Virus record (IMG/VR): IMGVR_UViG_3300043786_001231
Span: 1 to 40,889 of that record
Source of the DNA: a virus
Direction: 5' to 3' (one strand)
DNA length: 40,889 nt
The notes under the pieces were generated by a model that was not told the DNA's origin, made no database searches, and saw only the letters and a list, made by a program, of their open reading frames with translations. Each line of letters opens with the position of its first letter. The first letter of the stretch is position 1. Shown here piece by piece: positions 1 through 40,889 of the stretch. Both the position numbers and the translations under genes were made by a program.

Positions 1-127
1 CAACGCCGCTTGTCGTTCTCGCTCGCTCACGACCGCCCCCCCAGCTTCGCGGCCAGTTGTGCAGCCGCGTCGTTCACCTTGCCCGCCCGCATCCGCTTGA
101 GACGCGCCCGGCCCCTGTCCTCGTCGG
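1..127. repeat. Terminal direct repeat, left copy (circular assembly overlap)
   Basis: These 127 bases are identical to 40763-40889. An exact 127-base repeat at the two ends of a contig is the usual sign of a circular or circularly permuted genome assembled with a k-mer of that size. The cut lies inside the C-terminal part of the replication-initiation gene. It is therefore more likely an assembly overlap than a biological terminal repeat. True unit length would be 40,762 bp. Confidence 0.93.
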
Positions 128-3107: not shown

Positions 3108-3340
3108 GACGCACCCCCTTCGGTCTTGTTGAGTTCGGCGATCAGGGCGTCGGCGGCTTCGACGGCCACGCCAGCGAGATGCGTGACGTTCGGCTCCGGG
3201 TTCCCCACCAAAAATGCAGCCATGTTGTCCTTCGCCATCGCTTCCCGCACGGTGAGTCCCATCCCTTCGCAGCGGATTGGGTCGCCGTATCGGTCTTTTG
3301 GCCCCTGCGGATACGCCGGTGCGTTCGGGTCGAGACTCAC
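3104..3340 (-). CDS. Small conserved-looking phage protein, unknown function
   Basis: A 78-aa protein beginning at a GTG (3340) that overlaps the stop of the ATPase gene as GTGA. It contains a hydrophilic N-terminus with several Pro, then a helical C-terminal half (VTHLAGVAVEAADALIAELNK). I do not recognise a family. The longer reading upstream to 3541 lies in the ATPase gene and looks like a shadow, so it is not used. Probably made in fixed ratio with its neighbours through translational coupling. Confidence 0.6.
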   Translation of the reverse strand: MSLDPNAPAYPQGPKDRYGDPIRCEGMGLTVREAMAKDNMAAFLVGNPEPNVTHLAGVAVEAADALIAELNKTEGGAS

Positions 3341-6452: not shown

Positions 6453-6676
6453 CGTTTGTCCCCTCGCGTTCAGTTGCGTTCGCTGCTGTCAACACGAGGA
6501 ACAATACCCGCGAAAAACGCGGCGGAAAGCGGGGTTTGTTCGATTGGCACTCATGCGGAAAACTGCATGTGCAGTGGTTGCGGCATGGTCTGGACGCAGA
6601 TGCGGCATGGATGCGGCACAGAAAAACTTTCGAGAAAATCTTGCGGGTGGCGATCCGGACCCCTACGCTGGCCTTG
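6453..6676. promoter_or_regulatory. Early control region with phased short repeats and palindromes
   Basis: No gene is seen here. Three copies of TGCGGCA(T/C) start at 6579, 6601 and 6612, so they are 22 and 11 bases apart, which puts them on the same face of the helix. Partial copies lie at 6554 and 6642. A 12-base palindrome CTGCATGTGCAG is at 6563-6574, and a CCGCG/CGCGG hairpin is near 6508-6522. On the minus strand a TATTGT that could be a -10 box lies near 6503. The region must hold the start of the early leftward operon, and the repeats look like regulator or initiator sites. Confidence 0.5.
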
Positions 6677-9942: not shown

Positions 9943-10573
9943 CCGACACGAACAGCGACCCGAAACCGCGGGGAATCGGCAGATAGGCCCCCGCGTCATC
10001 GCGCTCGAAATGCTCGGCAAGGAACGCGAGGCAGCCCGGCGCGATCGGGCGGAAACAGCCGGTCGGATCGGCCATCACGCCCGGATGCCCCGGCCACGGT
10101 CGCGCGTAGTGCAGCATGAGCCGTCCGCCCGGCTTGAGGATGCGGGCGATCTCCGCGAGGTAGCCGGCCAACAGCCCCTCGTCGAAATGCACGAACACGT
10201 CGAACGAGAACACGAGGTCGACCGACTTGGCGGGCACGTCCTGCAGCTTCCCGTCCGGGGACACGATCAGGTCGAACGGTCGGCGGACCTGTCGGGCGAG
10301 GGTGTCGCGGGCAGCATCGGTGCCGTCGACCAGGATCAGCCGGGACGCCTCGGGGATCCGCGGTGCGATCTCGCGGGACCAGCGACCGCCACCGGGTCCG
10401 ATTTCGACCACGCATCCGGGGGACAGGGCGAGGCAGTCGCAGAGATGCGCGAACACCCCGGCCATCGCGCCATCGGTCACCTTGCCCCATTGCTCGCCGT
10501 AGACGAGGCCCGCGTCGGGATGCTCCGCCAGCCAACCGGTCAGCCACGCGACTTGTTTTTCGGCCTCGGTCAT
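9929..10573 (-). CDS. Class I SAM-dependent methyltransferase
   Basis: A 214-aa methyltransferase of the Methyltransf_11/25 type. The SAM-binding motif I is VVEIGPGGGRWS, followed by an acidic loop end in LILVDGTDAA (motif II), SVDLVFSFDVFVHF (motif IV) and ILKPGGRLMLHY (motif V). The target is unknown. Its ATG at 10573 overlaps the stop of the glycosyltransferase, so it probably acts on the same sugar or glycoprotein. Last gene of the leftward late path; its 3' end meets the plus-strand operon. Confidence 0.85.
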   Translation of the reverse strand: MTEAEKQVAWLTGWLAEHPDAGLVYGEQWGKVTDGAMAGVFAHLCDCLALSPGCVVEIGPGGGRWSREIAPRIPEASRLILVDGTDAARDTLARQVRRPFDLIVSPDGKLQDVPAKSVDLVFSFDVFVHFDEGLLAGYLAEIARILKPGGRLMLHYARPWPGHPGVMADPTGCFRPIAPGCLAFLAEHFERDDAGAYLPIPRGFGSLFVSVTRR

Positions 10574-12138
10574 CCGACCACCCCTTGCAGATACCGGCCC
10601 CACTCCTCGCCCATCCGAGCGGCGGAAAACATCTCCCACGCGACTTGCCGACCGCTGCGAACCCGCGCGACATGATCGTCCGCCAGCGCGGCCAAACAGG
10701 CGTCGCCGAGTTGCTTTTCGGTCGCGCGGTGAGGCACGACGGTGAGGATGCCCGGCCAGCGTTGTTCGATCTCGGGGACGATCCCCGTTGCCGTCACGAC
10801 CTGCGGCACGCCCACGAGCATCGCCTCGGTCACGACCAACCCGAACCCTTCCTCGGGCGAGCACAACAGATGGATGTCCAACGCAGCGTAGGCGTCACCG
10901 ATACAGCGCGGCGGGTCAATGACCTGCACCGCGTCCCCGGCAACGTCCCGAGCATCGGCGAGAACATCCTCGACCGGGCCGGGCAGTCCCGATCCGATCA
11001 GCACGCCCCGCACGCGGCGATCCGGCAATCGGCGTTGCACTTCGGCCACGGCGAGCGCGAGGGCCTTCGGATTCTTCTCGGGACTGATGCGACCGACTTG
11101 GCCGATGACGAGGTCTGTCGATTCGAGGCCCCACTCGGCGCGAACGGCGTCTCGATCGCGCACCGGACGCAGCCTCTCGGCAGACGAGCCGTTCCAGATG
11201 ACCCTTGGCGCTGGACCGTCGCCAAACGATCCGGCGGCCACTCGGGACACCCCGACGCGGCACGGTGTCGCGGTCGTCGCCAAATGCCGCCGTGACCACT
11301 CGCTCGCCCCGTGACTGACGGCGACGTGCGGGCCGGTCCAACCAGCGGCGGCGAGCATTTCATCCGGCGAGGTGATCCCCCAGCTTACGACCACGTCAAC
11401 GCTTTCCAGCGATCGGCGCAACACCTCGGCGTCCGTGTCGCACCAGGTGACGGGGCAGTCCGAGCCGGGCTTGTGCCCCCACTTCACGCCGCGGGTTCCG
11501 TACAGGGTCGCTCCCGTCCGGGCGATCTCGTGGCAAATCGGATCCCACTTTTGGCCGTCGCGGACGATCGCCACGGAGACGACGCGGGCGAGGTCGACCG
11601 GCAGGGATGCGGACAGGTCGGCAATCCACCGCTCGACACCACCGGCGCCACAGTCGGGCGTCAGGATGCACACGCGGACGGGACCGGTTTGCTTCGATAC
11701 TGGGAGCCGTGCGTCGAGTTGCACAAGGCCCGGATTCGCCACCGGAATCGAGGTCCGGTCGCGGCAGTGGTAGCAGTCCCGCAGGCGTCCGCTTTTCTTC
11801 CGGCGGATGATCGAGCACTCGCCGTGCTTGTCGCACGCTCGCACCTCGAACGGTTGTCCGCGATCAATGCAGGTGTCGCATTCGTCGATGCGCAGCACGT
11901 CCCCGCGATGCTCGCACGGCAGGTCTTCCCACGTCGTCTGACTCGGAATCAGTGGTTCGCCGTCCTCGTCGCGCGGCACCCACGAGGCCACGGGCTGACG
12001 CGAGGGGATCGCCGCCGGCACGCAGTTGCGTTTCGGCCATCGTTCCGGCGTGGCGTTCGTCCGCAGCCCACGGCGGCACGCTCGGCAAATGATGTGACCG
12101 GGTCGCGCGGCATCAACCTCGAAAACGCAGTTGCTCAC
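10570..12138 (-). CDS. Glycosyltransferase (GT4-like) with Cys-rich N-terminal domain
   Basis: A 522-aa protein. Residues about 1-145 hold several Cys pairs (CRAC, CDTC, CYHC, plus HGEC), likely zinc-binding. From about 150 on it is a GT-B enzyme: VCILTPDCGAGGVERW at the front, then the nucleotide-sugar half with VGRISPEKNPKALALA and LLCSPEEGFGLVVTEAM, the E-x7-E-type motif of retaining GT4 enzymes. It would transfer a sugar to an acceptor in the cytoplasm. Coupled to the Cys-rich virion protein before it and the methyltransferase after it, so it may decorate that virion protein or modify host glycans; inferred. Confidence 0.82.
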   Translation of the reverse strand: MSNCVFEVDAARPGHIICRACRRGLRTNATPERWPKRNCVPAAIPSRQPVASWVPRDEDGEPLIPSQTTWEDLPCEHRGDVLRIDECDTCIDRGQPFEVRACDKHGECSIIRRKKSGRLRDCYHCRDRTSIPVANPGLVQLDARLPVSKQTGPVRVCILTPDCGAGGVERWIADLSASLPVDLARVVSVAIVRDGQKWDPICHEIARTGATLYGTRGVKWGHKPGSDCPVTWCDTDAEVLRRSLESVDVVVSWGITSPDEMLAAAGWTGPHVAVSHGASEWSRRHLATTATPCRVGVSRVAAGSFGDGPAPRVIWNGSSAERLRPVRDRDAVRAEWGLESTDLVIGQVGRISPEKNPKALALAVAEVQRRLPDRRVRGVLIGSGLPGPVEDVLADARDVAGDAVQVIDPPRCIGDAYAALDIHLLCSPEEGFGLVVTEAMLVGVPQVVTATGIVPEIEQRWPGILTVVPHRATEKQLGDACLAALADDHVARVRSGRQVAWEMFSAARMGEEWGRYLQGVVG

Positions 12139-21292: not shown

Positions 21293-22195
21293 TCAGAACC
21301 CTTCCACAAAAGCGCGGTGGAGTCGTTTCACCCCAGCCCCTGAACCCGATCCTTCAATCATCAGCCGCCCGCCTTGCTCGGCAAACAGCGGCAAGCCCGA
21401 CTCCGTCAACAGCGTGCGGGATGATTGAACCGCAGGTGAATACGTAAACCCGTTCGATAGCGTTCCCGACCCCGCCGCCGTGGTCACGACAACGTCTTTC
21501 GCTCCGGCGGTTCCCGCCGGTGTCACACAGGTGATCGTGGTCGAGTTGACGACCGACACTGACGTTGCCGAAGCCCCGCCAATCGTCACGCCGGTCGCGC
21601 CCGTGAAGTCGGTCCCGGTGATCGTGATCGCGGTCCCGCCAGTGGTTGAACCGGACGATGGGTCGACGCCTGAAACGGTTGGGGCAGATGCCGACGATGT
21701 GTAATACACCCGCATCCGGTACGCATCGAGTTGGAAATTCGGGTTGTATTTGAAGTCGTAGTTTTGGTGTCGGACCTCAACCCCGAACGTAGACGCCTTG
21801 ACCTCGGAATCGGTCCAGGTTGTCCCGAATTTGTTTGTCGCACCTCCGAATGTTTGCCAAGCAAAGGAACCAGGAACAAGAAACGAAGCGGTCGCCCCGC
21901 CCTGATTTGTTCCGACAAGTCCTGAACCATCTTTTGTCAATTGGATCAGGTCGGCGTAAACAACACCTCCGCCGATGTTTCTGGCGTAGGTCCCGACCTC
22001 GAAACCATCAATTGTGGCTCCGCTCGGGAGGTCAGAAAATCCGAAATTGAGAAGCCGAACCTGCGGGTAGGCAAATCCGCCGCCCCATGTCATGTAGCTG
22101 CCGTCTTGCGCGAGGACGTTCGCTACTCCGGAAACAAATCCGGACCCGAGGATCAGCGTTGACGATGCAGGAAACGCCCAATCTGTCACAGCCAT
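21293..22195 (-). CDS. IPT/TIG (Ig-like) domain virion protein
   Basis: A 300-aa protein. Residues about 1-170 form a beta region (an exposed jelly-roll-like part). Residues about 173-255 form an IPT/TIG Ig-like domain: PTVSGVDPSSGSTTGG, ITGTDFTGATGVTIGG, TTITCVTPAG. The C-terminal 45 residues are distinct. Ig-like domains on phage particles help weak binding to cell surfaces or mucus. Stop and start overlap neighbouring genes (22195 shared with the sulfotransferase stop). Codon use matches the structural genes. Confidence 0.75.
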   Translation of the reverse strand: MAVTDWAFPASSTLILGSGFVSGVANVLAQDGSYMTWGGGFAYPQVRLLNFGFSDLPSGATIDGFEVGTYARNIGGGVVYADLIQLTKDGSGLVGTNQGGATASFLVPGSFAWQTFGGATNKFGTTWTDSEVKASTFGVEVRHQNYDFKYNPNFQLDAYRMRVYYTSSASAPTVSGVDPSSGSTTGGTAITITGTDFTGATGVTIGGASATSVSVVNSTTITCVTPAGTAGAKDVVVTTAAGSGTLSNGFTYSPAVQSSRTLLTESGLPLFAEQGGRLMIEGSGSGAGVKRLHRAFVEGF

Positions 22196-22824
22196 TACCC
22201 AAACCTCCGCCCGTTCGGGTCGATGATTCCTCGGGCTTCGTCATTCAGCGGCAGGCCCACAAAATCGGCGAGCGATTGCAAGGTGGCCTCAGTCGCGTCG
22301 AACAGGTCCGCGTACACCACGCGATGCTTTGGACCTTGCCACGAATCCCACAGCGATTCAACGGCGATCTTGGTGTCAGCGACGAAAGACGGGGCGCCTG
22401 CCTTGAAGTGATCCCATGTGCGCTCGACCGCACTGGCTTGCGACTGCTCGACGGGTCTATCGCAAACGATCAATCGAACATCCAAGCCCATTGCTGAAAG
22501 CACGCGAGCGGCGACCCACGAGTGAAGCCCCTTGATGCCCCACCGTGGATACGAAGCTCGCGATTGAATCATTGCGGTGATCAGTGCCGCCCCTTCGTCG
22601 TCAGGTTGCCAATCGTCGCGTGGGCGATCCAGACCCTGGAGATATCGGGTTGTGAATGCGTGAAATTCCTTGTCTGCGAAGTGCCCTTTGAGGTTCCAAT
22701 CGTCGGGTGTGTTGTCGTTCACGAAACCACCCACGCCCATGTTGACGCCGAGTGCGTGCAGAATCCCAGCGGTAACGCTCGTTCCCGAGCGAGGCGGACC
22801 GGCGACAACGTAGAGTTCCGACAC
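22195..22824 (-). CDS. Sulfotransferase-family P-loop protein
   Basis: A 209-aa protein with a PAPS-binding P-loop at the N-terminus (VAGPPRSGTSVTAGIL) and a second PAPS-contact-like segment, CDRPVEQSQASAVER. It ends in YADLFDATEATLQSLADFVGLPL, the normal sulfotransferase tail. It would move sulfate from PAPS to a sugar, lipid or protein. A phage copy amid virion genes suggests modification of host or virion surface. Two palindromic GGCATNATGCC sites lie upstream, so it may have its own control. Confidence 0.72.
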   Translation of the reverse strand: MSELYVVAGPPRSGTSVTAGILHALGVNMGVGGFVNDNTPDDWNLKGHFADKEFHAFTTRYLQGLDRPRDDWQPDDEGAALITAMIQSRASYPRWGIKGLHSWVAARVLSAMGLDVRLIVCDRPVEQSQASAVERTWDHFKAGAPSFVADTKIAVESLWDSWQGPKHRVVYADLFDATEATLQSLADFVGLPLNDEARGIIDPNGRRFG

Positions 22825-24217: not shown

Positions 24218-25276
24218 TCAGAATGAAAGGGTCGTCTTTCGCGCATCGGCCACAGCACGCGCGGGCCGTTCGTTCGCGCCGAACACGTTGATGTCGATCT
24301 GGTTTTCGACGAAGCCATCGAGGTCCGTCACAGACCAGCAGTCGCCCGGCTGGCAGATTTCCACATCCATATCGCGGAACGTCACCCAGAAACTCCCACG
24401 CGGTTCGCCTTGCAGCGGCGCGGGATGCGCCGACTCGCCCCATGAGTTCAGGAGGCAGAAATAATCCGTCGCCCCCGTCCCGTCGTAGCCGATGCAGCAC
24501 ATCGCATGCGCCCACTCGGCGTTCTTGCGTGCGACCATCCGGCCATCGCGTTCGCGGATGTCCGTGCTGCCGAACCGCGAGCCAATGAGGACCGGGTAGC
24601 CGTTGCAAATCGCGTCCCGTGCTTGCGCTGCGGTCCGAACTGGCGCGATCGTCTTGACGCGGCGAGTGCTGGCGATGTCCAAGAACCGTTGCGGCGGCCC
24701 CTTCAATCCCCACTCCCGAGCCTTCTCGCCGGAATAGGGCGGCACACCATCGTCATCGGCGAACAGAATCCCGTGGTCGCGCATCCCTTGCACGATCCAC
24801 GCGACAACCGCACCGTCCCCTCGCACCTTGCCTTTGCCGACCTGAACGCGACCGACGCCGTACAGGAACGGCGGATAGACTTGCCGGAACCGGATGGCCT
24901 TGCCTTCGCCGATCTCGATCCCCTGTCGGTTCTCGACGGCGTTCTTGCCCGAGAACGATGTGCAGTCCCCCACCTGCTGCGGGTAGTTTGGCGGGACGTT
25001 CAACCCGGCCTTGGCCCACACTTCCCAGAACCGCACGTTGGCGTTCGCGTTGTCCTGGACGATCGCGCGGCCTTCCGCGTCCACAAGCTGGAACGGCGGA
25101 TGCGCGGCGATGATCGGCGCGGCTTCTTCCTCGAAATTCTCGACCAACCCGTAACGGACCGCTTCCGGCGTGACGGCAGGCGCGGACAGCCACATCGTCA
25201 GCGCGGCCCCGAGGGTCACGCCAACGACGAGAACCAGCCCCGTCCAAATCGCGATGTGTCGCGTCCGTCGCGTCAT
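24218..25276 (-). CDS. Membrane-anchored papain-like cysteine peptidase
   Basis: A 352-aa protein. Residues 8-31 form one transmembrane segment; the rest faces outward. The C1-family active site is visible: Cys105 in QQVGDCTSF, His257 in WAHAMCCIGYDG, Asn277 in LLNSWGE, with Gln100/101 close to the usual oxyanion Gln position. Trp after NSWG and a Trp/Phe-rich end fit the fold. No conventional endolysin was seen in this genome, so this may open the cell envelope or process surface proteins. ATG 25276 overlaps the stop of the PKD protein. Enzyme fold certain, role inferred. Confidence 0.83.
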   Translation of the reverse strand: MTRRTRHIAIWTGLVLVVGVTLGAALTMWLSAPAVTPEAVRYGLVENFEEEAAPIIAAHPPFQLVDAEGRAIVQDNANANVRFWEVWAKAGLNVPPNYPQQVGDCTSFSGKNAVENRQGIEIGEGKAIRFRQVYPPFLYGVGRVQVGKGKVRGDGAVVAWIVQGMRDHGILFADDDGVPPYSGEKAREWGLKGPPQRFLDIASTRRVKTIAPVRTAAQARDAICNGYPVLIGSRFGSTDIRERDGRMVARKNAEWAHAMCCIGYDGTGATDYFCLLNSWGESAHPAPLQGEPRGSFWVTFRDMDVEICQPGDCWSVTDLDGFVENQIDINVFGANERPARAVADARKTTLSF

Positions 25277-26529
25277 TTCGCCCCCCGCAGACCCACAGCC
25301 ACCTCGCGCAGCACGACCGCCCATTGCTCAGCGGTTGCAACGTCGCGGTTTGATAGCTGCCGCGCCTTGACCCACACGGACAGCTTGCCGAGCACTTCCA
25401 ACAGCTTGAGCGACGGCGTGATCCGTGCGTCGAATATCGCCTTCTTGATCGCGTCGGAAACCTTCGTCGCGACCTCGTTCGGGTTGCCGATGAAGTTGGC
25501 TGGGGTCGCGACGATGACAGCCGACACACCCTCGCACACGCCCGCGTAGGCCAGCCGATCCGCCTCGGGGATGCCCGCAGCCCATTGGGTCACGAGGGCG
25601 TCAAGGCCGTATTTCGACGGAGACGGAGCGGGTGGCGTCGGCGTAGGGGCAGGCCCCGGTCCCGGCGGAATCGGCATCGGCGGCGAGGGCGATGGCGGGA
25701 CCGGCGTCGGGACCGGGGGCACTGGGGGGCTTGGTGGCAGGGGGGACGGTGTTGGTTGCGGCGTGCCGGGAATCGTCACGACCCACGTCAGCAGATCGGC
25801 CCCCTCGGCGTTGGACACCACGAGCGTGTACGACCAGACGCCGGGCAGGCTCGCAATTGACACCCGCGACGGGTCCTTGTCGCAGACCTTGAACAGGCGG
25901 CGTCCGGCGATATCCGGCTGAACACGCCACAGGAACTTGATGCCCTCGCCTTCGCTTTGCGAGGCATCCAGCGTCAGCAGTTCGCCGGCGGTGCCGGTCG
26001 TTGGGCCGTTAATCACGGCCTTCGGCGGGGCGGCGATGACCGTTCCGCAGAGCGACAGCAACACGAGGACGCAGCCCATCGTGCCAATAACCTTGGCCCC
26101 GCTCGGCGTCTGCGTCGCGTACATCCCGCCGCCCAACGCCTCGGGCACACCCACGCCACCGGCAGGCGGTTCCATCTCGGTCGAGACGTGAAACACATCG
26201 GGCAGCGGCTTGGGCTTCACCGCGTCGTTGAACGCATCCCGGACAATCTGCGCGATCATCACGTAGACTTCCGCGCCGACCGCCGCTTTCAGCTTCTCCA
26301 ACGCATGCTTGAGGCCCGCCACAGCGAGCGACGACCCGAGGCCCAGGATCATCAACCACAGTTCCGACGACGGCCACACGGACGACTCGCCATCCATCAC
26401 GACTCGCGGGCAAGAGGCGTAGTAGCCGACGGCACCCGCAGCGATCAGCCCGGCCCCCGTGTACGACTTCCAGCCGTCGATCAGCTTCCAAGCGGCCAGA
26501 GCCAGCCGCAGAATCGTGAGCCATCCCAT
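25273..26529 (-). CDS. Holin-like N-terminus fused to a PKD domain and Pro-rich stalk
   Basis: A 418-aa protein in three parts. Residues 1-75 hold two or three short hydrophobic helices (WLTILRLALAAWKLIDGW; LWLMILGLGSSLAVAGL), like a small holin or membrane-adaptor. Residues about 147-167 are another hydrophobic segment that would work as a signal peptide (CVLVLLSLCGTVIAA). Residues about 170-255 are a PKD domain (LTLDASQSEGEG, FLWRVQPD), then a Pro-rich stalk to about 305 and a helical end. The fusion suggests two original genes. It directly precedes the papain-like peptidase. Membrane and PKD parts are clear; holin function is inferred. Confidence 0.68.
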   Translation of the reverse strand: MGWLTILRLALAAWKLIDGWKSYTGAGLIAAGAVGYYASCPRVVMDGESSVWPSSELWLMILGLGSSLAVAGLKHALEKLKAAVGAEVYVMIAQIVRDAFNDAVKPKPLPDVFHVSTEMEPPAGGVGVPEALGGGMYATQTPSGAKVIGTMGCVLVLLSLCGTVIAAPPKAVINGPTTGTAGELLTLDASQSEGEGIKFLWRVQPDIAGRRLFKVCDKDPSRVSIASLPGVWSYTLVVSNAEGADLLTWVVTIPGTPQPTPSPLPPSPPVPPVPTPVPPSPSPPMPIPPGPGPAPTPTPPAPSPSKYGLDALVTQWAAGIPEADRLAYAGVCEGVSAVIVATPANFIGNPNEVATKVSDAIKKAIFDARITPSLKLLEVLGKLSVWVKARQLSNRDVATAEQWAVVLREVAVGLRGAK

Positions 26530-26664: not shown

Positions 26665-27642
26665 TCAGGCCGCAACAGCCTCGGTCGTCCGCGCCACCAA
26701 ACGCTGGACCTTGACCGGCCCAGCGGTCGCTGCACTGCTCGACTTTTCGAGGTGCGCGAGCAGCTTGAACGGCCCCGTTGCGGCGGTCAGCACGAACGTC
26801 GTCGCCGACAGAACGCGCTGCCCGTTGATGTAGAACTTCACGCTCGTCAGGTCGCGCGTGTCGATCCACACGTCGAACGATGTGCCGACCACAAACGCCT
26901 TTGTGGTGTCGGTCGCGGCGACTTCGGTCGTCCCGTCGTCCGACTCCGCGAGGAGCGTCAGCGCCCCGCCGTCGATGTGAACGAACGCCGACTCCGCGAT
27001 GGCATCCGCATCCGTCGTGCTCGTCGCGTTGGCCACGCCGACATTGATGTCGACCGCGTTGGTTGAACCGTTGGCCGCGATCAGCACGCGAGCCTCGGCG
27101 ATACCCTTGGCCCCCTTCGCAAACGATGCGGTCGACAAAACATCGACGCACTGTGCCTCGTTGGTGGAGGTAAGCACCATCTCGGCACAGGAACGACCCT
27201 GCATCCGCGCTTCCTGGAAACCGGTAAACGCAGCCGTTCCCGTCGCCACCGAATCGAACTCTTCGAGGGCGTCGACCGAATAGACTGTGCGGACGTTGAG
27301 GTCGACCAGCACGGCTGTCCCGGTCTCGGTCGTGTGGTCACCCACCACGGCCCCGAGGTAGAAGTCCCGGTCGTCGCCGCGACGGATGAACGCGACGTTT
27401 GCCGAGTGGTCCCACCACGCTTCGCCGCCGTCGAGGAAGGCGTGCGTCCCGGCCTTCGGCACGGAGTATTGACCGCGAACCGCCACCGCTGCCGGGTCCG
27501 CGGTCGTCGTCGCCGCCTTGTCCCGCAGCACCACACCGGCACGTCCGTCCGGCAGTTGAATCACTTGACCACCCGTGAGGGCGGCCGTCGTCCGCATTTC
27601 GACGACGCTCGGGTCGTCCAATACCGAATCCGCTTCGGGCAT
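26665..27642 (-). CDS. DUF2190-like capsid decoration protein with lectin-like extension
   Basis: A 325-aa protein. Residues about 15-115 match the DUF2190 head-decoration domain (GGQVIQLPDGRAGVVL, then ATTTADPAAVAVRGQYSVPK and FYLGAVVGDHTTE). Residues about 120-315 form a beta-sandwich resembling concanavalin/LamG folds: GFQEARMQG, DINVGVANATS, FDVWIDTRDLTSVKFYINGQRVL. The combination places a possible sugar-binding lobe on each decoration subunit. Start at 27642, with GGGGAGAAAC as ribosome site. Directly follows the capsid gene, as decoration genes do. Confidence 0.7.
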   Translation of the reverse strand: MPEADSVLDDPSVVEMRTTAALTGGQVIQLPDGRAGVVLRDKAATTTADPAAVAVRGQYSVPKAGTHAFLDGGEAWWDHSANVAFIRRGDDRDFYLGAVVGDHTTETGTAVLVDLNVRTVYSVDALEEFDSVATGTAAFTGFQEARMQGRSCAEMVLTSTNEAQCVDVLSTASFAKGAKGIAEARVLIAANGSTNAVDINVGVANATSTTDADAIAESAFVHIDGGALTLLAESDDGTTEVAATDTTKAFVVGTSFDVWIDTRDLTSVKFYINGQRVLSATTFVLTAATGPFKLLAHLEKSSSAATAGPVKVQRLVARTTEAVAA

Positions 27643-27680
27643 GTTTGTTTCTCCCCGTGGGGTTGTTTCTGGCTTGGAAG

Positions 27681-27707
27681 GCCCGGCGATCCCATCGACC
27701 GCCGGGC
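27681..27707. other. Stem-loop after the capsid ORF
   Basis: 8-bp stem GCCCGGCG/CGCCGGGC with an 11-base loop, between the capsid stop (27744) and the decoration start (27642). No T-run follows, so it may protect the 3' end of the capsid message or slow transcription rather than end it. Confidence 0.55.
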
Positions 27708-27743
27708 GTGTCAATCACAATCCGCGCGACTCACGGGCGACTG

Positions 27744-30700
27744 TCAGGCAGCACCCTTCGACTTCACCCCGGCGAGGTATTCCGCTTGGTCGACCCCGAA
27801 GTCGTGGTAGCCCCGGAACACGATCCCGAGCGTGTCGAATTCGGCGTCACTCGACTCGACGGTCGGCGTCTGCTGACCGTTGAGGAACGAGACCACCATC
27901 GCGGCCATCCGTTGCGGCGCCCGCATGAGATACCAAGCGGTCGTCGAGAAGCCGGTGAAGGCCGAATCGGACAGCCACGGCACGACCACCGGTCGATACT
28001 TGCGGTAGTACGTGTTCGTCCCGCTCACCGCCGTGGCGACAGCCGGGTCGGTCAGGTAAATCCGGTTCGCGGTGTCTTCCAGTTCGGGAGGCACCACGAG
28101 GATTTCCGGGTTCCCGCCGATGCGATATCGCTGGCTGTCGCTGTCGCTCGACTTGACCTTGGGCGACTTCATGTCGCGGAACGCCTTCAACCCGAGACCG
28201 AGGCCCACGCCGTCGGTCCCCAGGTTCGTCGTCGCTCCGCTGATGTAGTTGCCACGCGCGCTCGTGAAGAACGAGGCGTTGTCGAGGAACTTGGTCCAGT
28301 AGACGTTATTCAGCTTCTTCGCGGCCCCGCTCCCCAGACGGTTGCGGATGTCGTCGAAGGCGCCCAAGTCGTCGTTGAGGATGTCCGCTCGGTCAAACTG
28401 GAACATTTTCGCGTAGGTCTTCGCCTGCCGCGTGTACGACTCTTCCCCGAGCTTGCCTTCCTTGATCTTCCCGCCGGGGGGCAGTTCCTCGTACTGCATG
28501 TCGTCGAGCATGCGATAGCTCGTGACCTGCTTGAAGTCGCGGACGGTCTTGACGGTCGCCAATTCCCGCCACGTCTGATCCTCTTCCATGTAGCCCCTGA
28601 GAATCTCTTTGTTGGCCACGTTGGACAGGATGCCCGGCAGGGACAGCGTCGACGCATTGGTCGCGGCGAGACTCCCGGAGTAGCGACCGAAGGCCGCTTC
28701 GAGCACCGCACGGAGGTTGCCGGAATGCACGCCCTCGTGCGGGCCGGACACGTAGCCCCGCGCACACGCTTCGATCATGAGCAACCGTTGAAGGCCCAGG
28801 TTCCGAAACTGCCGTTGCGCTTTGTCGAGCGTTTCGGCGCTGTAGTGCTTTTCCGGGGACGCCAGACCGGCCGACAGGGCCAGCGCGGCTTCCAGCACCT
28901 GCGGCGATGAATCGTGGTTGTGGACGATCCCGCTCGGGGCCTTCGGACGCACTTCCTTGAGCGCGGCCAGTTCGGTCTTTTCGCGGGTCCACCCTTCGCC
29001 GATGGCCGTGGCTTCGATGCGACCGCGGGCCTTCACGTCGGGAATCTCGGCGACGATCTCGCGAATCGCACCGATGCGGGCGGCTTCCTCGGCGGCTTGC
29101 TTCCGCATCAGACCGAGCATCGTCACGGACGCGGCGGTCAGGTCCAGATTCGCACCGGCGGCCACAGCAGGCGCGGGCGTCGGGGTGGCGGTCGCGGTCG
29201 CAACCGGAGCGGCGGCCTTGGCTTTCGCCTCCGCTTCACTCGCCTGCTGCGAGTCGTAGACCTTCTGCAGCGCGGCCAAAGCCTCGGGCGTTTGCGTTGC
29301 CGGGTCCATTCCCAGCGACTTCAACCAGTCCTCAAAAGTCATGGCGTTTGCCTTTCCTGAAAGCGCGGCAGCCGCCGCAAGATTCACCGTGGTGCGGCTG
29401 TCCGCCCCCATCGGGAGAACACTGGTTTCGCGCAACTCAGCCGATCGCGCGAGAATGAACGGCCCCTCGATCTGCTGACCGTTGACGGCGACGACCTGCC
29501 CGGCGGGAATCTCGATCCCCTCGTAGTTGCAGCCGATTGACGCCTGCCACTTGTGGCCCTTGTCCGCCTGCGCCAGCACTTGCAGGCACTTCGGCGAGGC
29601 CCCCGTCACGGACCCGCGAAGCCGGAGCGTCGTCCCGTCGTTCTCAACGGCCTCGACTTGCCCAAGCGTGCTTTCGACCGACTTCGTGTGATCGATCAGG
29701 ATCGGCACGTTCTGCGCGACCGTGAGCGCGGACAGGTCAACGACGACCGGCAGGGGGGCGCCCGAGACGTTCAGCTTTCCGCCGGTGTAGGCCAAGATGT
29801 CGAACCGCCGAGCCTTGCCAGATTCCGCAGCCGACAACGCAACCACAGCCGGACCGTTCAGCGTCGTGACGGTCGCCGCCGCTTCGAGGGACAGCACCCC
29901 GCACGCTTGGGCGACCTCGGTGTCGTCAACACGACCGTCGGACAACGCATCATCGAGCAACGCGGCAGCACGCTCCGGCGCGAGGCCCAGGGTCTCCAGT
30001 AACGCAGCAGAGGCAGCACGCGACGACCGACCGGCAATGGCCTCGTTCAGAACATCCCGAACGGCCTTGACGTTGTTCTGCCACTGTCGACGACCGAGAC
30101 CGCCGAACTCGCCACCGGGGGCCGCGCTCGCGACACCGGCAGCCGGATCGGCAGGCACACCCGCAGACGCCGACGGAAACTTGAGCGACAGCCGGAGCAT
30201 CCGCAATTGACCGGGCGTCACCCCATAGTCTTGAGCGGCGCGGCGTTCCTCGCTGGTGAAATCGCGACCGAGCAACATCGCTTCCGTCGAGGGGGCCGAC
30301 AGACCGGCATCGACGCGAGCGACAGCCGCCTTGATCCGGTCCAATTCGTCCCCGGTCGGTGGCGGGTCCCACTGCCACGCATGCGGAATGCGTTCGATCT
30401 CCGGCAGGCCGTCGAGCAAGCCCGGAACGAACACCGCCTCGTCGAGGAACCAGCGGAACAGCTTCTCGACGAACTGTCGCTCGAATCGCCGTTGCTCGCT
30501 CGTGACCTCGGCCACCCACGCAATCGACTGGTCGAGCACCGCCGACGAGTAATTCGACTCGCGCGACGATCCGACCGCGATGTGATACGGCATGCAATAC
30601 GGACGGCACCACTTCGTGATTTGCTGCCGCGTGAACATCTCGTAAGTCGTCGCCGGATGCTCGGGCTTGAACGAGTTTCGGTGCCACCCCTGCGGCAGGA

Positions 30701-31571
30701 ACGTCGCCCCGCCGTCCGGCAAGTTGATCTGGAAGAAATCCGACTGGCTCGACGACGGAGTCCCCGCGGCGCCAGCGGTCTCGATGGTCTCGGGTGACCG
30801 GGCCGCGTTCTCGGCGGCGATCAGCGTCGCACGCTCGAATCGACGCAATGTCGCAAGATCGACCAGCCCGGACGCCCCGCGAGACACGCCCCGCAACTGG
30901 CCGGGACGATCCGCGCGGTACGTGTGAATCACGTCACTCGCGTCGTACCAATCGCCTTCCAGCGACCCACCCCAAGCGTAGTTTGCGCCCGGATGTTGCC
31001 GCAGAATGTGATACCGCACCGGCAGGCCCGACTCGGAATCGACTTCGACCCCGTCGTCAATGTTCGGATCGGTCACCGCTTGCCACGGCAACCCGAGTTG
31101 TTCGGCTTCGTACAGCCGCGGCACAACACGAAATTCCGGGTGAACATCCGCGCGACGACGCAGGCCGACGCATTCGCCGTCCCGCCAGTCCGTTCGCACC
31201 GCCGTTTTGAGCACTGAGACGAGGCCGATGGCATTCGCGAACTCGGCCCACGCCGCTTCGAGACGGTCACCGGCGACACGGTCCTCGACCAGCACCTGGA
31301 GCCGCGGGCCGTTCCCGACGATGTGATTCGCCGCCGTCGTCAACAGCCCGTTCAGCCAGCAGCAGTTTTCGTCCTCGTACCGCATCCGCTTCCGCAGCAC
31401 GGACCGCACCTGCGGCGACAACGACGCCCGAGCGTCCATCGAGTCCGCGTAGGCGAAGTGATTGGACAGCGTCCCCGTCGTCTGCGCACCCTCGAAGCGC
31501 GCCTGCACTCGCCCGAACACCGGAGCGAACGAACGCGACACCGTGGCGATGACACGAGAAAACCAACTCAC
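27744..31571 (-). CDS. Portal - prohead protease - scaffold - major capsid single ORF
   Basis: One frame of 1275 aa with four parts. Residues 1-480: lambda-type portal (RKRMRYEDENCCWLNGLL; HIVGNGPRLQVLV; RPYCMPYHIAVG). Residues about 495-560: helical linker. Residues about 590-735: prohead protease, with His628 in PILIDHT and Ser678 in WQASIGC, the S78 type Ser-His pattern. Residues 744-930: scaffold-like, Ala/Glu-rich. Residues 943-1275: Mu gpT-like major capsid (FQFDRADILNDDLGAFDD). An internal ATG at 29342 with AGGAAAGG eight bases upstream would make scaffold-capsid alone. Portal and capsid are needed in very different amounts, so this start is probably essential. Confidence 0.9.
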   Translation of the reverse strand: MSWFSRVIATVSRSFAPVFGRVQARFEGAQTTGTLSNHFAYADSMDARASLSPQVRSVLRKRMRYEDENCCWLNGLLTTAANHIVGNGPRLQVLVEDRVAGDRLEAAWAEFANAIGLVSVLKTAVRTDWRDGECVGLRRRADVHPEFRVVPRLYEAEQLGLPWQAVTDPNIDDGVEVDSESGLPVRYHILRQHPGANYAWGGSLEGDWYDASDVIHTYRADRPGQLRGVSRGASGLVDLATLRRFERATLIAAENAARSPETIETAGAAGTPSSSQSDFFQINLPDGGATFLPQGWHRNSFKPEHPATTYEMFTRQQITKWCRPYCMPYHIAVGSSRESNYSSAVLDQSIAWVAEVTSEQRRFERQFVEKLFRWFLDEAVFVPGLLDGLPEIERIPHAWQWDPPPTGDELDRIKAAVARVDAGLSAPSTEAMLLGRDFTSEERRAAQDYGVTPGQLRMLRLSLKFPSASAGVPADPAAGVASAAPGGEFGGLGRRQWQNNVKAVRDVLNEAIAGRSSRAASAALLETLGLAPERAAALLDDALSDGRVDDTEVAQACGVLSLEAAATVTTLNGPAVVALSAAESGKARRFDILAYTGGKLNVSGAPLPVVVDLSALTVAQNVPILIDHTKSVESTLGQVEAVENDGTTLRLRGSVTGASPKCLQVLAQADKGHKWQASIGCNYEGIEIPAGQVVAVNGQQIEGPFILARSAELRETSVLPMGADSRTTVNLAAAAALSGKANAMTFEDWLKSLGMDPATQTPEALAALQKVYDSQQASEAEAKAKAAAPVATATATPTPAPAVAAGANLDLTAASVTMLGLMRKQAAEEAARIGAIREIVAEIPDVKARGRIEATAIGEGWTREKTELAALKEVRPKAPSGIVHNHDSSPQVLEAALALSAGLASPEKHYSAETLDKAQRQFRNLGLQRLLMIEACARGYVSGPHEGVHSGNLRAVLEAAFGRYSGSLAATNASTLSLPGILSNVANKEILRGYMEEDQTWRELATVKTVRDFKQVTSYRMLDDMQYEELPPGGKIKEGKLGEESYTRQAKTYAKMFQFDRADILNDDLGAFDDIRNRLGSGAAKKLNNVYWTKFLDNASFFTSARGNYISGATTNLGTDGVGLGLGLKAFRDMKSPKVKSSDSDSQRYRIGGNPEILVVPPELEDTANRIYLTDPAVATAVSGTNTYYRKYRPVVVPWLSDSAFTGFSTTAWYLMRAPQRMAAMVVSFLNGQQTPTVESSDAEFDTLGIVFRGYHDFGVDQAEYLAGVKSKGAA
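29340..29358 (-). promoter_or_regulatory. Internal ribosome site and start for scaffold-capsid
   Basis: AGGAAAGG at 29351-29358, eight bases from an in-frame ATG at 29342 in the capsid super-ORF. The protein begins MTFEDWLKSLGMDPATQT, the usual look of a capsid precursor N-terminus. It would yield a 532-aa scaffold-capsid product independently of the portal-protease part. Confidence 0.75.
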
Positions 31572-31783
31572 GTTTGGTGCCCCCCAAGAGGACCGGGGGG
31601 CGTGTATTGGCCGAACCGCAGACCGCCAGCGCGATCGCCCGCCATCGCATTGCGCGACGCGAGGTAGCGATCCGCCTCGATCAGTTCGGTAAGCGATCTC
31701 TCGGTGACCGTCTGCCCGTCAACCGACACGGAGACCGCACCCGCCGCTCGCGTCTCGATCTGGCTCGCCAGAGAGTCCGACAT
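31568..31783 (-). CDS. gpW-like head-tail joining protein
   Basis: A 71-aa protein, MSDSLASQIETRAAGAVSVS then VDGQTVTERSLTELIEADRYLAS, which fits the gpW pattern of a small helix-hairpin-helix protein between terminase and portal. gpW fits into the portal pore after packaging and lets the tail attach. The ATG at 31783 is chosen over an upstream ATG at 31825, because the extension is a poor sequence. Stop overlaps the portal start (ATGA). Confidence 0.65.
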   Translation of the reverse strand: MSDSLASQIETRAAGAVSVSVDGQTVTERSLTELIEADRYLASRNAMAGDRAGGLRFGQYTPPGPLGGHQT

Positions 31784-31950
31784 AAAAGAATGCCCGCGCA
31801 GAGGGTGCAGCCCCTGCACGGGCATTCAAGCGACCGGGGATCAGCCGGATCGACGGCAATCATCCCCATAGTGCGAGCTAAGACAATCTTGCCTTGCGCG
31901 AGTAAATCGACTTCTCACAATGTTCCGTTACCCGTATCCGTCCACGCGAC

Positions 31951-32160
31951 TTATCTCGCGACCCCGCCGGTTCTAGGTCCCGGTCCAAGTTGCTCCGTCG
32001 TCAGCAGCAAGCGACGACACTCCGGGTTGAGGCAGCGACGTTCGCGGCGAATGGTGCCAGCACGTTTCACGGTGCGAGTTACTTCGCTTTCGGTACTGCC
32101 ACAGTCCGGGCATCTAATACCGAGCGGCGGCAGTTGTAGCGGCAAGGCCTGTTGTTTCAT
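31951..32160 (-). CDS. Zinc-ribbon protein (Ogr/NrdR-like)
   Basis: A 69-aa protein with one four-Cys ribbon: CPDCGSTESEV, a basic strand pair (RTVKRAGTIRRERRC) and CLNPEC, followed by LLLTTEQL. This pattern is close to phage Ogr/Delta activators and NrdR-type ribbons, which bind DNA. The ATG at 32160 overlaps the terminase stop (ATGA). As the only gene between terminase and gpW it may help packaging or late transcription; inferred. Confidence 0.65.
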   Translation of the reverse strand: MKQQALPLQLPPLGIRCPDCGSTESEVTRTVKRAGTIRRERRCLNPECRRLLLTTEQLGPGPRTGGVAR

Positions 32161-34253
32161 ACCACGCGCCCCACGAGGAGATGGGGAGGAATGACGAACG
32201 GCTTCGGACCGTCCCCGACTGCGGACCCACTCGCCTCGAACTGGCGAATGCCGCACATCGAGGCCCCGACGTGACACCCGACCAATCCGTCGAACCAGTG
32301 GTTATCCCTTCCCGGCAGCAGCGACCATTCGGTGAGTTCACGCCCCCGCCCCGATGTTTCGATGGCAACCTCGGCCGTCAAATGGTCCTTGAGCATCCGG
32401 TGCGCCTCGGGTTTGTGGCCCCACACGGACAAGCACCCCTTGTCCCCCATCGGCGTCGCGAATCGCTGCGCGGCGAACGTCTTCCAAGTGTTCGTGTCGA
32501 TGTTGACGTGGCGGACCGATCTACCCTCTCGCACCGACGACACGATCCAGCCTTGCCCGTGCTCCTCGCCGGGCCGCTTCTGCCACGACTCCATCGGCGA
32601 CGACTTCGCCGAAATGCCCCGACCGTGCGACGGGATGACCAGCGCGGCGAAGGGCGTCTGTTGGGCGAACCGGTAGACCGTGCCCGTCGACTTGCCCCAG
32701 TTCGCATCGATCAAGATTCGCGAGGCCCGCATCGCGATCCCGTCCGCGCGGGTCCACTGTTTCCCCGCGATCCCGTTCACCAACGCTTCGAGGCCCGCGT
32801 ACAGGGTTCCTTCGAGACCGCGACCGGGGTACGCATCCTGCAACGTCCGCCGAGCGTCGGCCAAGGTGAAGTAGGCGCGCCCCTGGTCGGGGAACGTCCC
32901 GTAGTCGATGACGTACCCGGTGAAAAATGGCTCCCACGCGCAGACCACGTACCAAAGCGTCGTTTGCTGCACGTCGACGTAGGCCGTGATGTGCGTACAG
33001 GCCGACGGCACCGCGTGACGCTCTAACCCGTTGCACTTGGCCGCCAGCAACGCATCCGAGACCGCCGACACCGCCGTCGCCTTCGGGCGAATCGGATCGT
33101 TCTGGAACTCACTCGCGAACCCAACCTCTCCATATCTGAGACGCAGGTGGATTACGTGCTGCTGTGCGGAAATGTCCGATTTCGATTTGCGTTCCGGCCA
33201 CGAGACGACGAATCCCTTATCCATCGCCTCGCGGTTCTGCACGTAGAACTCGACGGCCTCAGAAATTCCCCGATCCTTTCGCAGGCCCTCCGACATCATG
33301 TCGATGTATCGAGACCACAGGGCCTCGCCAACTTCATCGGGCCACGACTGCACCATCCGACAGCGGATCCCCCGCCACTGCGGATTCCGCTGCCGATCCA
33401 CGAGCCTGTCGGCAAGATCGTTTGGCTTGATGACCGTGAGCGGAGCCAGAACCGAGAATTCCTCGCCGGGACCTGCAAGCCCTTGAACCGCCGAATTGAT
33501 GATCGACTCGCGGTCGTCGCACTGGCTCGGGGAGGCTGCGGATTCTTCCGTCTGCGCGTCATCAACGATTGCGAGCGTCGGACGATGAATCTGGCCATCC
33601 TCGAACACGCGAAAGCGACCGCGGATTTCGCCCGTCAACCCGACCGCGTCAATCGTGGCGCCCGACGCCACCGATCCGTCGATGGTCGGCAGGATGACTT
33701 GATCCGCGCCTAACTTCATTTCGATCGGATTGCCCTTGTGCAGGAGCCGCCGTTGCTTGACCCCGGCCAGCTTTCGGATCGGCACACACACCTCGGGGAA
33801 GTCCTGCGCGAGCAATTCCTTGGTTCGCAAATGGTTGACGATGGAGACCAGCAACCGCGACGCGGCGTCGGCAGTGGCTCCCACGAGGATGACGTAGCGA
33901 TGCCGACCCTTGAGGATTGCCCAGATAGCCGCGACGACGCACATGGCCGTCTTGCCGCTTCCCCGAGGCATCGCCACTGCTGTTGCCCCGCCGTGCTCGA
34001 CAACGTCCTCAACGAGGTTTGACACGAGCACATGGTCGGGCGAATCCGGCAGGTAGAAATTCTCCGCGAAGTACGTCTGGCGAAACGCGGTGTACGACTC
34101 CAGGCAGATTGCTCGCCGTTCTGGATTTCGCACCGGCGGCAAATCCCCGATGTCGCGGGCGCTCGTTGACTGCTCGCGAAACTCCTGCGCTTTCCGCTCG
34201 CGAAACTCCTCGTAGGCAACTTGGCTTTTCGCGGTTTTCGCCATCTTGCCCAT
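32157..34253 (-). CDS. terL: Terminase large subunit
   Basis: A 698-aa packaging motor. Walker A is AMPRGSGKTAM (about residue 100), Walker B PTLAIVDDAQTEES (about 225), with coupling motif region near 270. The C-terminal half contains acidic residues of the RNaseH-like nuclease: TAYVDVQQTT (about 430), ILIDANWGKS and the terminal DNHWFDGLVG (about 660). This is a GpA/Terminase_GpA-like arrangement, matching the lambda-like order that follows. The ATG at 34253 is used; one at 34244 would also work. The promoter is not clear. Confidence 0.9.
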   Translation of the reverse strand: MGKMAKTAKSQVAYEEFRERKAQEFREQSTSARDIGDLPPVRNPERRAICLESYTAFRQTYFAENFYLPDSPDHVLVSNLVEDVVEHGGATAVAMPRGSGKTAMCVVAAIWAILKGRHRYVILVGATADAASRLLVSIVNHLRTKELLAQDFPEVCVPIRKLAGVKQRRLLHKGNPIEMKLGADQVILPTIDGSVASGATIDAVGLTGEIRGRFRVFEDGQIHRPTLAIVDDAQTEESAASPSQCDDRESIINSAVQGLAGPGEEFSVLAPLTVIKPNDLADRLVDRQRNPQWRGIRCRMVQSWPDEVGEALWSRYIDMMSEGLRKDRGISEAVEFYVQNREAMDKGFVVSWPERKSKSDISAQQHVIHLRLRYGEVGFASEFQNDPIRPKATAVSAVSDALLAAKCNGLERHAVPSACTHITAYVDVQQTTLWYVVCAWEPFFTGYVIDYGTFPDQGRAYFTLADARRTLQDAYPGRGLEGTLYAGLEALVNGIAGKQWTRADGIAMRASRILIDANWGKSTGTVYRFAQQTPFAALVIPSHGRGISAKSSPMESWQKRPGEEHGQGWIVSSVREGRSVRHVNIDTNTWKTFAAQRFATPMGDKGCLSVWGHKPEAHRMLKDHLTAEVAIETSGRGRELTEWSLLPGRDNHWFDGLVGCHVGASMCGIRQFEASGSAVGDGPKPFVIPPHLLVGRVV

Positions 34254-34391
34254 CTTGAAAGTAAGTGAGTGGTGTTGTTTGACAGTTCCCGTAGGTATCA
34301 CGAGCCGAAAAAGCCCCGGAAGGACCCATCGACCTTACTTTTACGTTGGATTGCTTGACCCAACCGGGGGCCTGCACGCCGGCACCGGTGC
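34254..34391. other. Short gap before the terminase with inverted repeat
   Basis: AAAGTAAG (34258-34265) and CTTACTTT (34334-34341) are perfect 8-base inverted repeats, 68 bases apart. They could form a long-loop hairpin at the terminase leader or bind a regulator. No gene is seen in this gap. Confidence 0.4.
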
Positions 34392-40649: not shown

Positions 40650-40792
40650 CGCGTCACCCGCTTTCCGTCCCGCATCGCCCGCAAGTGCGCGAGGCACACC
40701 TGCCGAAACCGTTCCACGTCCACCGGCGAGGCGTCCCGCGACCGAGGTCGCAACAACGCCCGCAACGCCGCTTGTCGTTCTCGCTCGCTCAC
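40646..40792 (-). CDS. Hidden 48-aa protein between replication protein and DnaB
   Basis: A 48-aa frame starting at a GTG (40792, equal to position 30 of the circle) that overlaps the replication gene stop (GTGA) and ending in an ATGA overlap with dnaB. It is Arg/Ala-rich and helical (REQAALRALLRP-like start; VERFRQVCLAHLRAM in the middle). The coupled overlaps on both sides make coding likely. It could be a helicase-loader-like helper, by position only. Confidence 0.6.
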   Translation of the reverse strand: MSERERQAALRALLRPRSRDASPVDVERFRQVCLAHLRAMRDGKRVTR

Positions 40793-40889
40793 GACCGCCC
40801 CCCCAGCTTCGCGGCCAGTTGTGCAGCCGCGTCGTTCACCTTGCCCGCCCGCATCCGCTTGAGACGCGCCCGGCCCCTGTCCTCGTCGG
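40763..40889. repeat. Terminal direct repeat, right copy
   Basis: Second copy of the 127-base overlap. It contains a truncated duplicate of the 3' end of the replication-initiation gene (40789-40889 equals 27-127) and the start of the 48-aa gene at 40646-40792. Read as a circle, position 40763 is position 1. Confidence 0.93.

Follow-up and report, generated by a model that had tools for sequence, protein, structure and literature searches.

A long-standing question of viral head assembly is how a single vertex comes to receive the 12-fold portal, when the remainder of the shell consists of hundreds of capsid subunits. In phage lambda (C/Nu3) and in herpesviruses (UL26/UL26.5), an in-frame nested start within the protease gene makes an excess of scaffold. 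Fusions of head genes are on record as well: in Pseudomonas phage MD8 (gp5) and MD8-like phages, protease, scaffold and major capsid protein are encoded in one gene, according to the available part of the description (PMC8508860), and protease-scaffold-capsid fusions are reported, in the accessible portions of two studies, for small actinophages, including Microbacterium cluster EE, Arthrobacter AN and others (PMC7302621, PMC5513430). The open-access literature searched, a coverage that leaves subscription papers outside, yielded no fusion of portal, protease and capsid.

Such a chain is encoded in the window, i.e., the whole stretch of 40,889 nucleotides analyzed here, which is probably a complete virus genome with planctomycete bacteria as hosts. 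An exact 127-bp direct terminal repeat (window positions 1-127 and 40763-40889) is most likely the assembly overlap of a circular genome, so that the contig is probably complete, the circle measuring about 40.8 kb (40,762 bp). Positions 27744-31571 form one unbroken frame of 1275 amino acids, starting with GTG at 31571 and ending with TGA at 27746-27744, without internal stop; the frame lies on the minus strand, which the first-pass annotation had left unspecified. Genes for terminase, head-tail joining, cement and tape-measure proteins and an integrase accompany it; neither strand of the window has a further gene for portal, protease or capsid. The features are as follows:

32157-34301, minus strand: terminase large subunit, as context (phrog_38 1e-36, PF20454 4e-18)
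31568-31825, minus strand: head-tail joining protein gene (phrog_2545 2e-5, NF047331 5e-5), its end overlapping the GTG start (GTGA)
31579-31601, minus strand: predicted GC hairpin burying the Shine-Dalgarno sequence (GGGGGG) of the full-length start (-21.6 kcal/mol, z -2.2)
27744-31571, minus strand: portal, protease, scaffold and major capsid in a single 1275-codon frame, also present in contigs L002 and L003
30234-31508, minus strand: portal domain of the lambda gpB type, aa 22-446 (PF05136 8.4e-45 over aa 44-344; phrog_21 1.8e-38)
29901-30233, minus strand: portal C-terminal extension (aa 447-557), matching split portals in phmmer at 1e-10 to 2e-17; its end aligns with that of the L018 portal
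29805-29900, minus strand: joint, aa 558-589, where split relatives have their protease start codon and the window has GTC
29367-29804, minus strand: protease domain, assemblin/S78-like, aa 590-735 (phrog_3244 1.9e-12, NF045541 5.8e-71; model pLDDT 88)
29351-29358, minus strand: Shine-Dalgarno-like AGGAAAGG, 8 nt before the internal ATG (family statistics)
27744-29342, minus strand: predicted 532-aa scaffold-capsid from Met744 (ATG in 114/128 dereplicated relatives)
28692-29342, minus strand: scaffold (delta-like), aa 744-960, predicted helical (AlphaFold model, helices 3-9, 19-43, 68-97 and 103-131)
27753-28667, minus strand: major capsid domain, HK97 fold, aa 969-1273 (PF25209 1.1e-41 over aa 972-1270)
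26665-27714, minus strand: cement/decoration protein, as context (PF09956 2.8e-5)

Matches to Pfam, PHROG and NCBIfam profiles confirm the central observation of the first-pass annotation, that one frame joins a lambda-type portal, a protease, a scaffold and a capsid. The portal domain belongs to the lambda-type family (PF05136, 153.9 bits against a gathering score of 32.9) and falls short of the TIGR01539 equivalog cut-off. Residues 447-557 are homologous to the C-terminus of stand-alone portals in the sister clade; the joint lies at or just past the end of this extension, and the window's frame runs past the end of the L018 portal and on into the protease. At the other end of the chain, the capsid domain is a member of Phage_capsid_4 (PF25209, 144 bits against a gathering score of 27), and its structural model matches HK97-fold capsids in Foldseek (1e-4 to 7e-7). 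The earlier description of this domain as Mu gpT-like has to be revised, since Mu gpT matches at only 8.5e-07 and PF25209 fits far better; Mu gpT was rejected as the closest capsid family.

The catalytic residues His628 (29688-29690) and Ser678 (29538-29540) were located where the first-pass annotation had placed them, and both are invariant among 42 relatives. The best PDB matches of the protease-domain model (pLDDT 88) are herpesvirus maturation proteases with modest TM-scores around 0.4 (top 0.42), and the model agrees with an S78/assemblin-like enzyme. A PHROG family annotated as 'major head and protease protein' covers aa 620-1273 (1.6e-59). The HK97 protease HMM TIGR01543 scores 16.5 bits (E 0.007), under its cut-off of 59; the protease is thus putatively S78-like by its catalytic His/Ser pair and assemblin-like predicted fold, but stands outside formal HMM membership. 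Like the prohead protease/major capsid fusions of NF045541, the window gene is one open frame; its score of 239.9 bits against a curated cut-off of 525 makes it a relative and not a formal member of that family. The intact catalytic pair and the assemblin-like fold make self-cutting plausible.

The family context was drawn from IMG/VR and GTDB genome scans and one cultured phage, which together gave 388 loci, a few duplicates included. Protease and capsid share one frame in 352 of them, so that the protease-capsid unit is ordinary for the family; in L358 and L344, where the two lie in different frames, the discrepancy looks like a single indel in the contig and was set aside. Of the dereplicated lineages, 138 have a stand-alone portal gene and only four a fused one (the window, L004/L005, L064/L179 and L180), counts that give no unbiased frequency since the searches were seeded partly with fused proteins. 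Where the two genes are split, the start of the protease gene overlaps the stop codon of the portal gene in 108 of 117 relatives. Two expectations of the first-pass annotation are thereby qualified. The full chain had been called unusual, and it is rare, but most of it is not: the protease-scaffold-capsid frame is the rule in this family and is published elsewhere (PMC8508860, PMC7302621). Relatives whose portal gene stands apart at this position had been named in advance as evidence against the reading, and the 138 lineages are of this kind, so that the fusion is not conserved, although the frame itself stands. By these comparisons, portal fusion appears to be a repeated, non-conserved event.

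Searches of bacterial genomes with the window protein alone recovered no relatives; a profile search recovered 80 loci, mostly in Planctomycetota MAGs and none of them fused. Many of these MAGs (PLA5, UBA5793, KLAP200, Bin_15R; GTDB contigs L099-L178) carry several head-module copies in different places, which suggests many prophages or gene-transfer-agent-like elements. In the Pseudomonas phage LPPA33 (L013, OR188720), the portal and protease-capsid genes are annotated merely as hypothetical proteins.

In the phylogeny, the four fused lineages require four changes, which are forced by well-supported branches, and a clade uniting the window with L004 is rejected by the AU test (p-AU 0.010); tree and test together rule out that all fused lineages go back to one ancestral portal fusion. 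L182, the sister of L064 at 76% DNA identity, is split. Portal fusion thus seems to have evolved independently at least four times. The lineages differ at the joint: L064 and L179, which are 92% identical, keep GGGAGGAG-ACTGCG-ATG inside the fused frame, exactly at the protease start of split relatives. Among all in-frame ATG, GTG and TTG codons between the window's portal and protease, none has a well-placed Shine-Dalgarno sequence; TTG538 was rejected as a retained start because its purine stretch lies too far upstream, and GTG559 because it sits 17 nt after GAGG. Read at the codon level, the window has lost the protease's own start, and its protease would accordingly be obtainable only from the long chain, a stricter form of fusion. 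In L069 (TGA at 6533-6535) and L181 (TAG at 3284-3286), one stop codon separates a portal and a protease-capsid unit in the same frame; these loci are candidates for read-through or for a pre-fusion step, and their arrangement indicates that fusion can arise easily.

The ATG at 29342 (Met744), with AGGAAAGG eight bases upstream and a predicted product of 532 amino acids, is exactly as previously noted. An ATG occurs within the scaffold-start window in 114 of 128 dereplicated relatives, and a strong Shine-Dalgarno sequence (anti-Shine-Dalgarno duplex energy <= -6) precedes 79% of these ATGs vs. 5% of matched same-frame windows (median -7.4 vs. -2.4; Mann-Whitney p 3e-51). Synonymous-codon shuffling still yields 46% strong sites, part of the signal being carried by the amino acids before the methionine (Lys-Gly, Lys-Glu); the observed values are higher (Wilcoxon p 8e-15). 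As a caveat, these p-values overstate independence, since the relatives share descent; the contrast is large nonetheless. In the window itself, the internal site is of moderate strength (-4.9) and does not exceed what synonymous coding of those residues would give. The arrangement corresponds to a nested-start scaffold of the lambda Nu3 type, a conserved in-frame start and ribosome-binding site inside the protease gene, and on this comparative evidence the internal ATG is a family-wide trait, not a peculiarity of the window phage. Such conservation supports the proposal that an internal start uncouples capsid from portal, and would explain how a one-to-one portal:capsid ratio is avoided.

The two starts differ in predicted accessibility. 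The joining-protein gene ends in overlap with the GTG start, which is therefore probably translationally coupled. Folding predictions rank the Shine-Dalgarno zone of the full-length start as more closed than 97% of in-frame positions; around the internal start, by contrast, local structure is predicted to be weaker than at 92% of them. The hairpin was evaluated in the window lineage alone, where L003 keeps it. These predictions would fit a long product that is translationally coupled and scarce, alongside a short one made in abundance; an excess of the nested product over the full-length chain is suggested by start accessibility alone.

In most relatives, portal and protease-capsid are separate genes that overlap briefly, and a single-base error there would merge the two frames. 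An assembly or sequencing artefact therefore has to be considered, the true genome then having a portal stop that overlaps the protease start. The same frame, however, recurs in contigs from two other metagenomes: L002 is completely identical to the window across 19.8 kb, and L003, with 95.7% identity over 11 kb, represents a distinct variant. Within the gene, L003 and the window differ in 31 codons, 29 synonymous and two non-synonymous, without indel. This appears as a strong purifying pattern; the central part that contains the joint is identical in all three contigs, and the comparison therefore shows that the gene is real and does not measure selection at the joint. Independently, both assemblies of the L004/L005 lineage keep the fused frame, as does the L064/L179 pair with an in-frame codon gap at its joint, and one indel would leave the window's missing protease start codon unexplained. 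With three-contig recurrence and independent fused pairs against it, the artefact was ruled out and is given next to no probability. A defective or decaying prophage remnant, to which the integrase and the many relatives in bacterial MAGs might point, is also improbable: the genome has its 127-bp terminal repeat and intact terminase, joining protein, cement, tape-measure and integrase genes, and the L003 comparison speaks for purifying selection. As a separate observation, gene codons 175-1161 form a fully identical block of ~3 kb between L003 and the window within the 95.7% identical region, which may reflect recent recombination or a mosaic.

The best explanation, and a fairly probable one, combines a scarce full chain, abundant scaffold-capsid translated from the internal ATG, and a protease that cuts the chain. 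A portal gene would have been joined in frame to a pre-existing protease-scaffold-capsid unit; initiation at GTG 31571, coupled to the joining-protein gene and with its ribosome-binding site buried in the hairpin, would yield little of the 1275-aa chain, and ATG 29342 would yield abundant 532-aa scaffold-capsid. The long chain would co-assemble with free scaffold-capsid through its own scaffold-capsid part, and the protease would then cut it, releasing the portal, of which 12 are used, and removing the scaffold. The portal C-terminus faces the head interior, and a chain that runs from portal through protease and scaffold to capsid would accordingly suit a prohead whose protease lies inside. 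The same orientation makes an attached tail sterically possible, and nested starts alone might suffice if the portal functioned with its tail attached and all free capsid came from internal starts, without self-cutting between portal and protease; from the perfect protease start retained in the fused frame of L064/L179, a separate protease-capsid could be translated even if nothing were cut. The window lacks a start of this kind, and its protease would exist only within the long chain; moreover, prohead proteases normally cut themselves free, and nested starts without cutting are considered unlikely. What endures of the first-pass interpretation is four functions in one frame, the uncoupling internal start and a rare full chain; most of the chain has turned out to be ordinary. 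More tentatively, and with somewhat less than an even chance, every portal subunit may arrive in the prohead with scaffold and capsid covalently attached, portal and protease existing only as the front end of a capsid precursor; this would fix portal and protease at 1:1 and might itself seed the one vertex that carries the portal, which cutting would then release. Portal-protease-capsid chains that arose at least four times would indicate that covalent linkage is tolerated, and they offer a direct test of portal delivery in cis with scaffold and capsid.

Several other genes of the window deserve mention. Among the virion genes are a sulfotransferase-like protein (22195-22824; PF13469 8e-6, slightly below cut-off) and a GT4 glycosyltransferase (10570-12138; PF13692 4e-15), for which modification of the virion or host surface is possible. 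A weak match to papain-family cysteine peptidases (PF00112 2e-4) lies at 24218-25324, in the part of the structural module that follows downstream of the capsid.

Compared to lambda C/Nu3 and herpesvirus UL26/UL26.5, where the nested product is scaffold alone, the predicted nested product of the window comprises scaffold and capsid. The HK97 protease has an assemblin-like fold, as predicted for the window. In HK97 gp4-gp5, the scaffold is likewise the N-terminal domain of the capsid protein, whereas portal, protease and capsid are separate genes (PMC10275583). The prohead protease-major capsid fusions of NF045541 / PHROG 4523 align with the window from aa 611 to the end; they are without portal, and the window reaches only 240 of the 525 bits required. 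The actinobacteriophages also fuse head genes that are normally separate, but in the accessible parts of these reports the portal is fused to MuF and not to protease and capsid (PMC7302621, PMC5513430). MD8 gp5 resembles the window in its one-gene protease-scaffold-capsid and in a capsid of Mu-like/HK97 fold; it differs in its ClpP-like protease, and the available part of the account describes the fused gene without portal and does not mention an internal start (PMC8508860). Protease-scaffold-capsid fusion and nested scaffold starts were already known; the portal joined to them is the new part.
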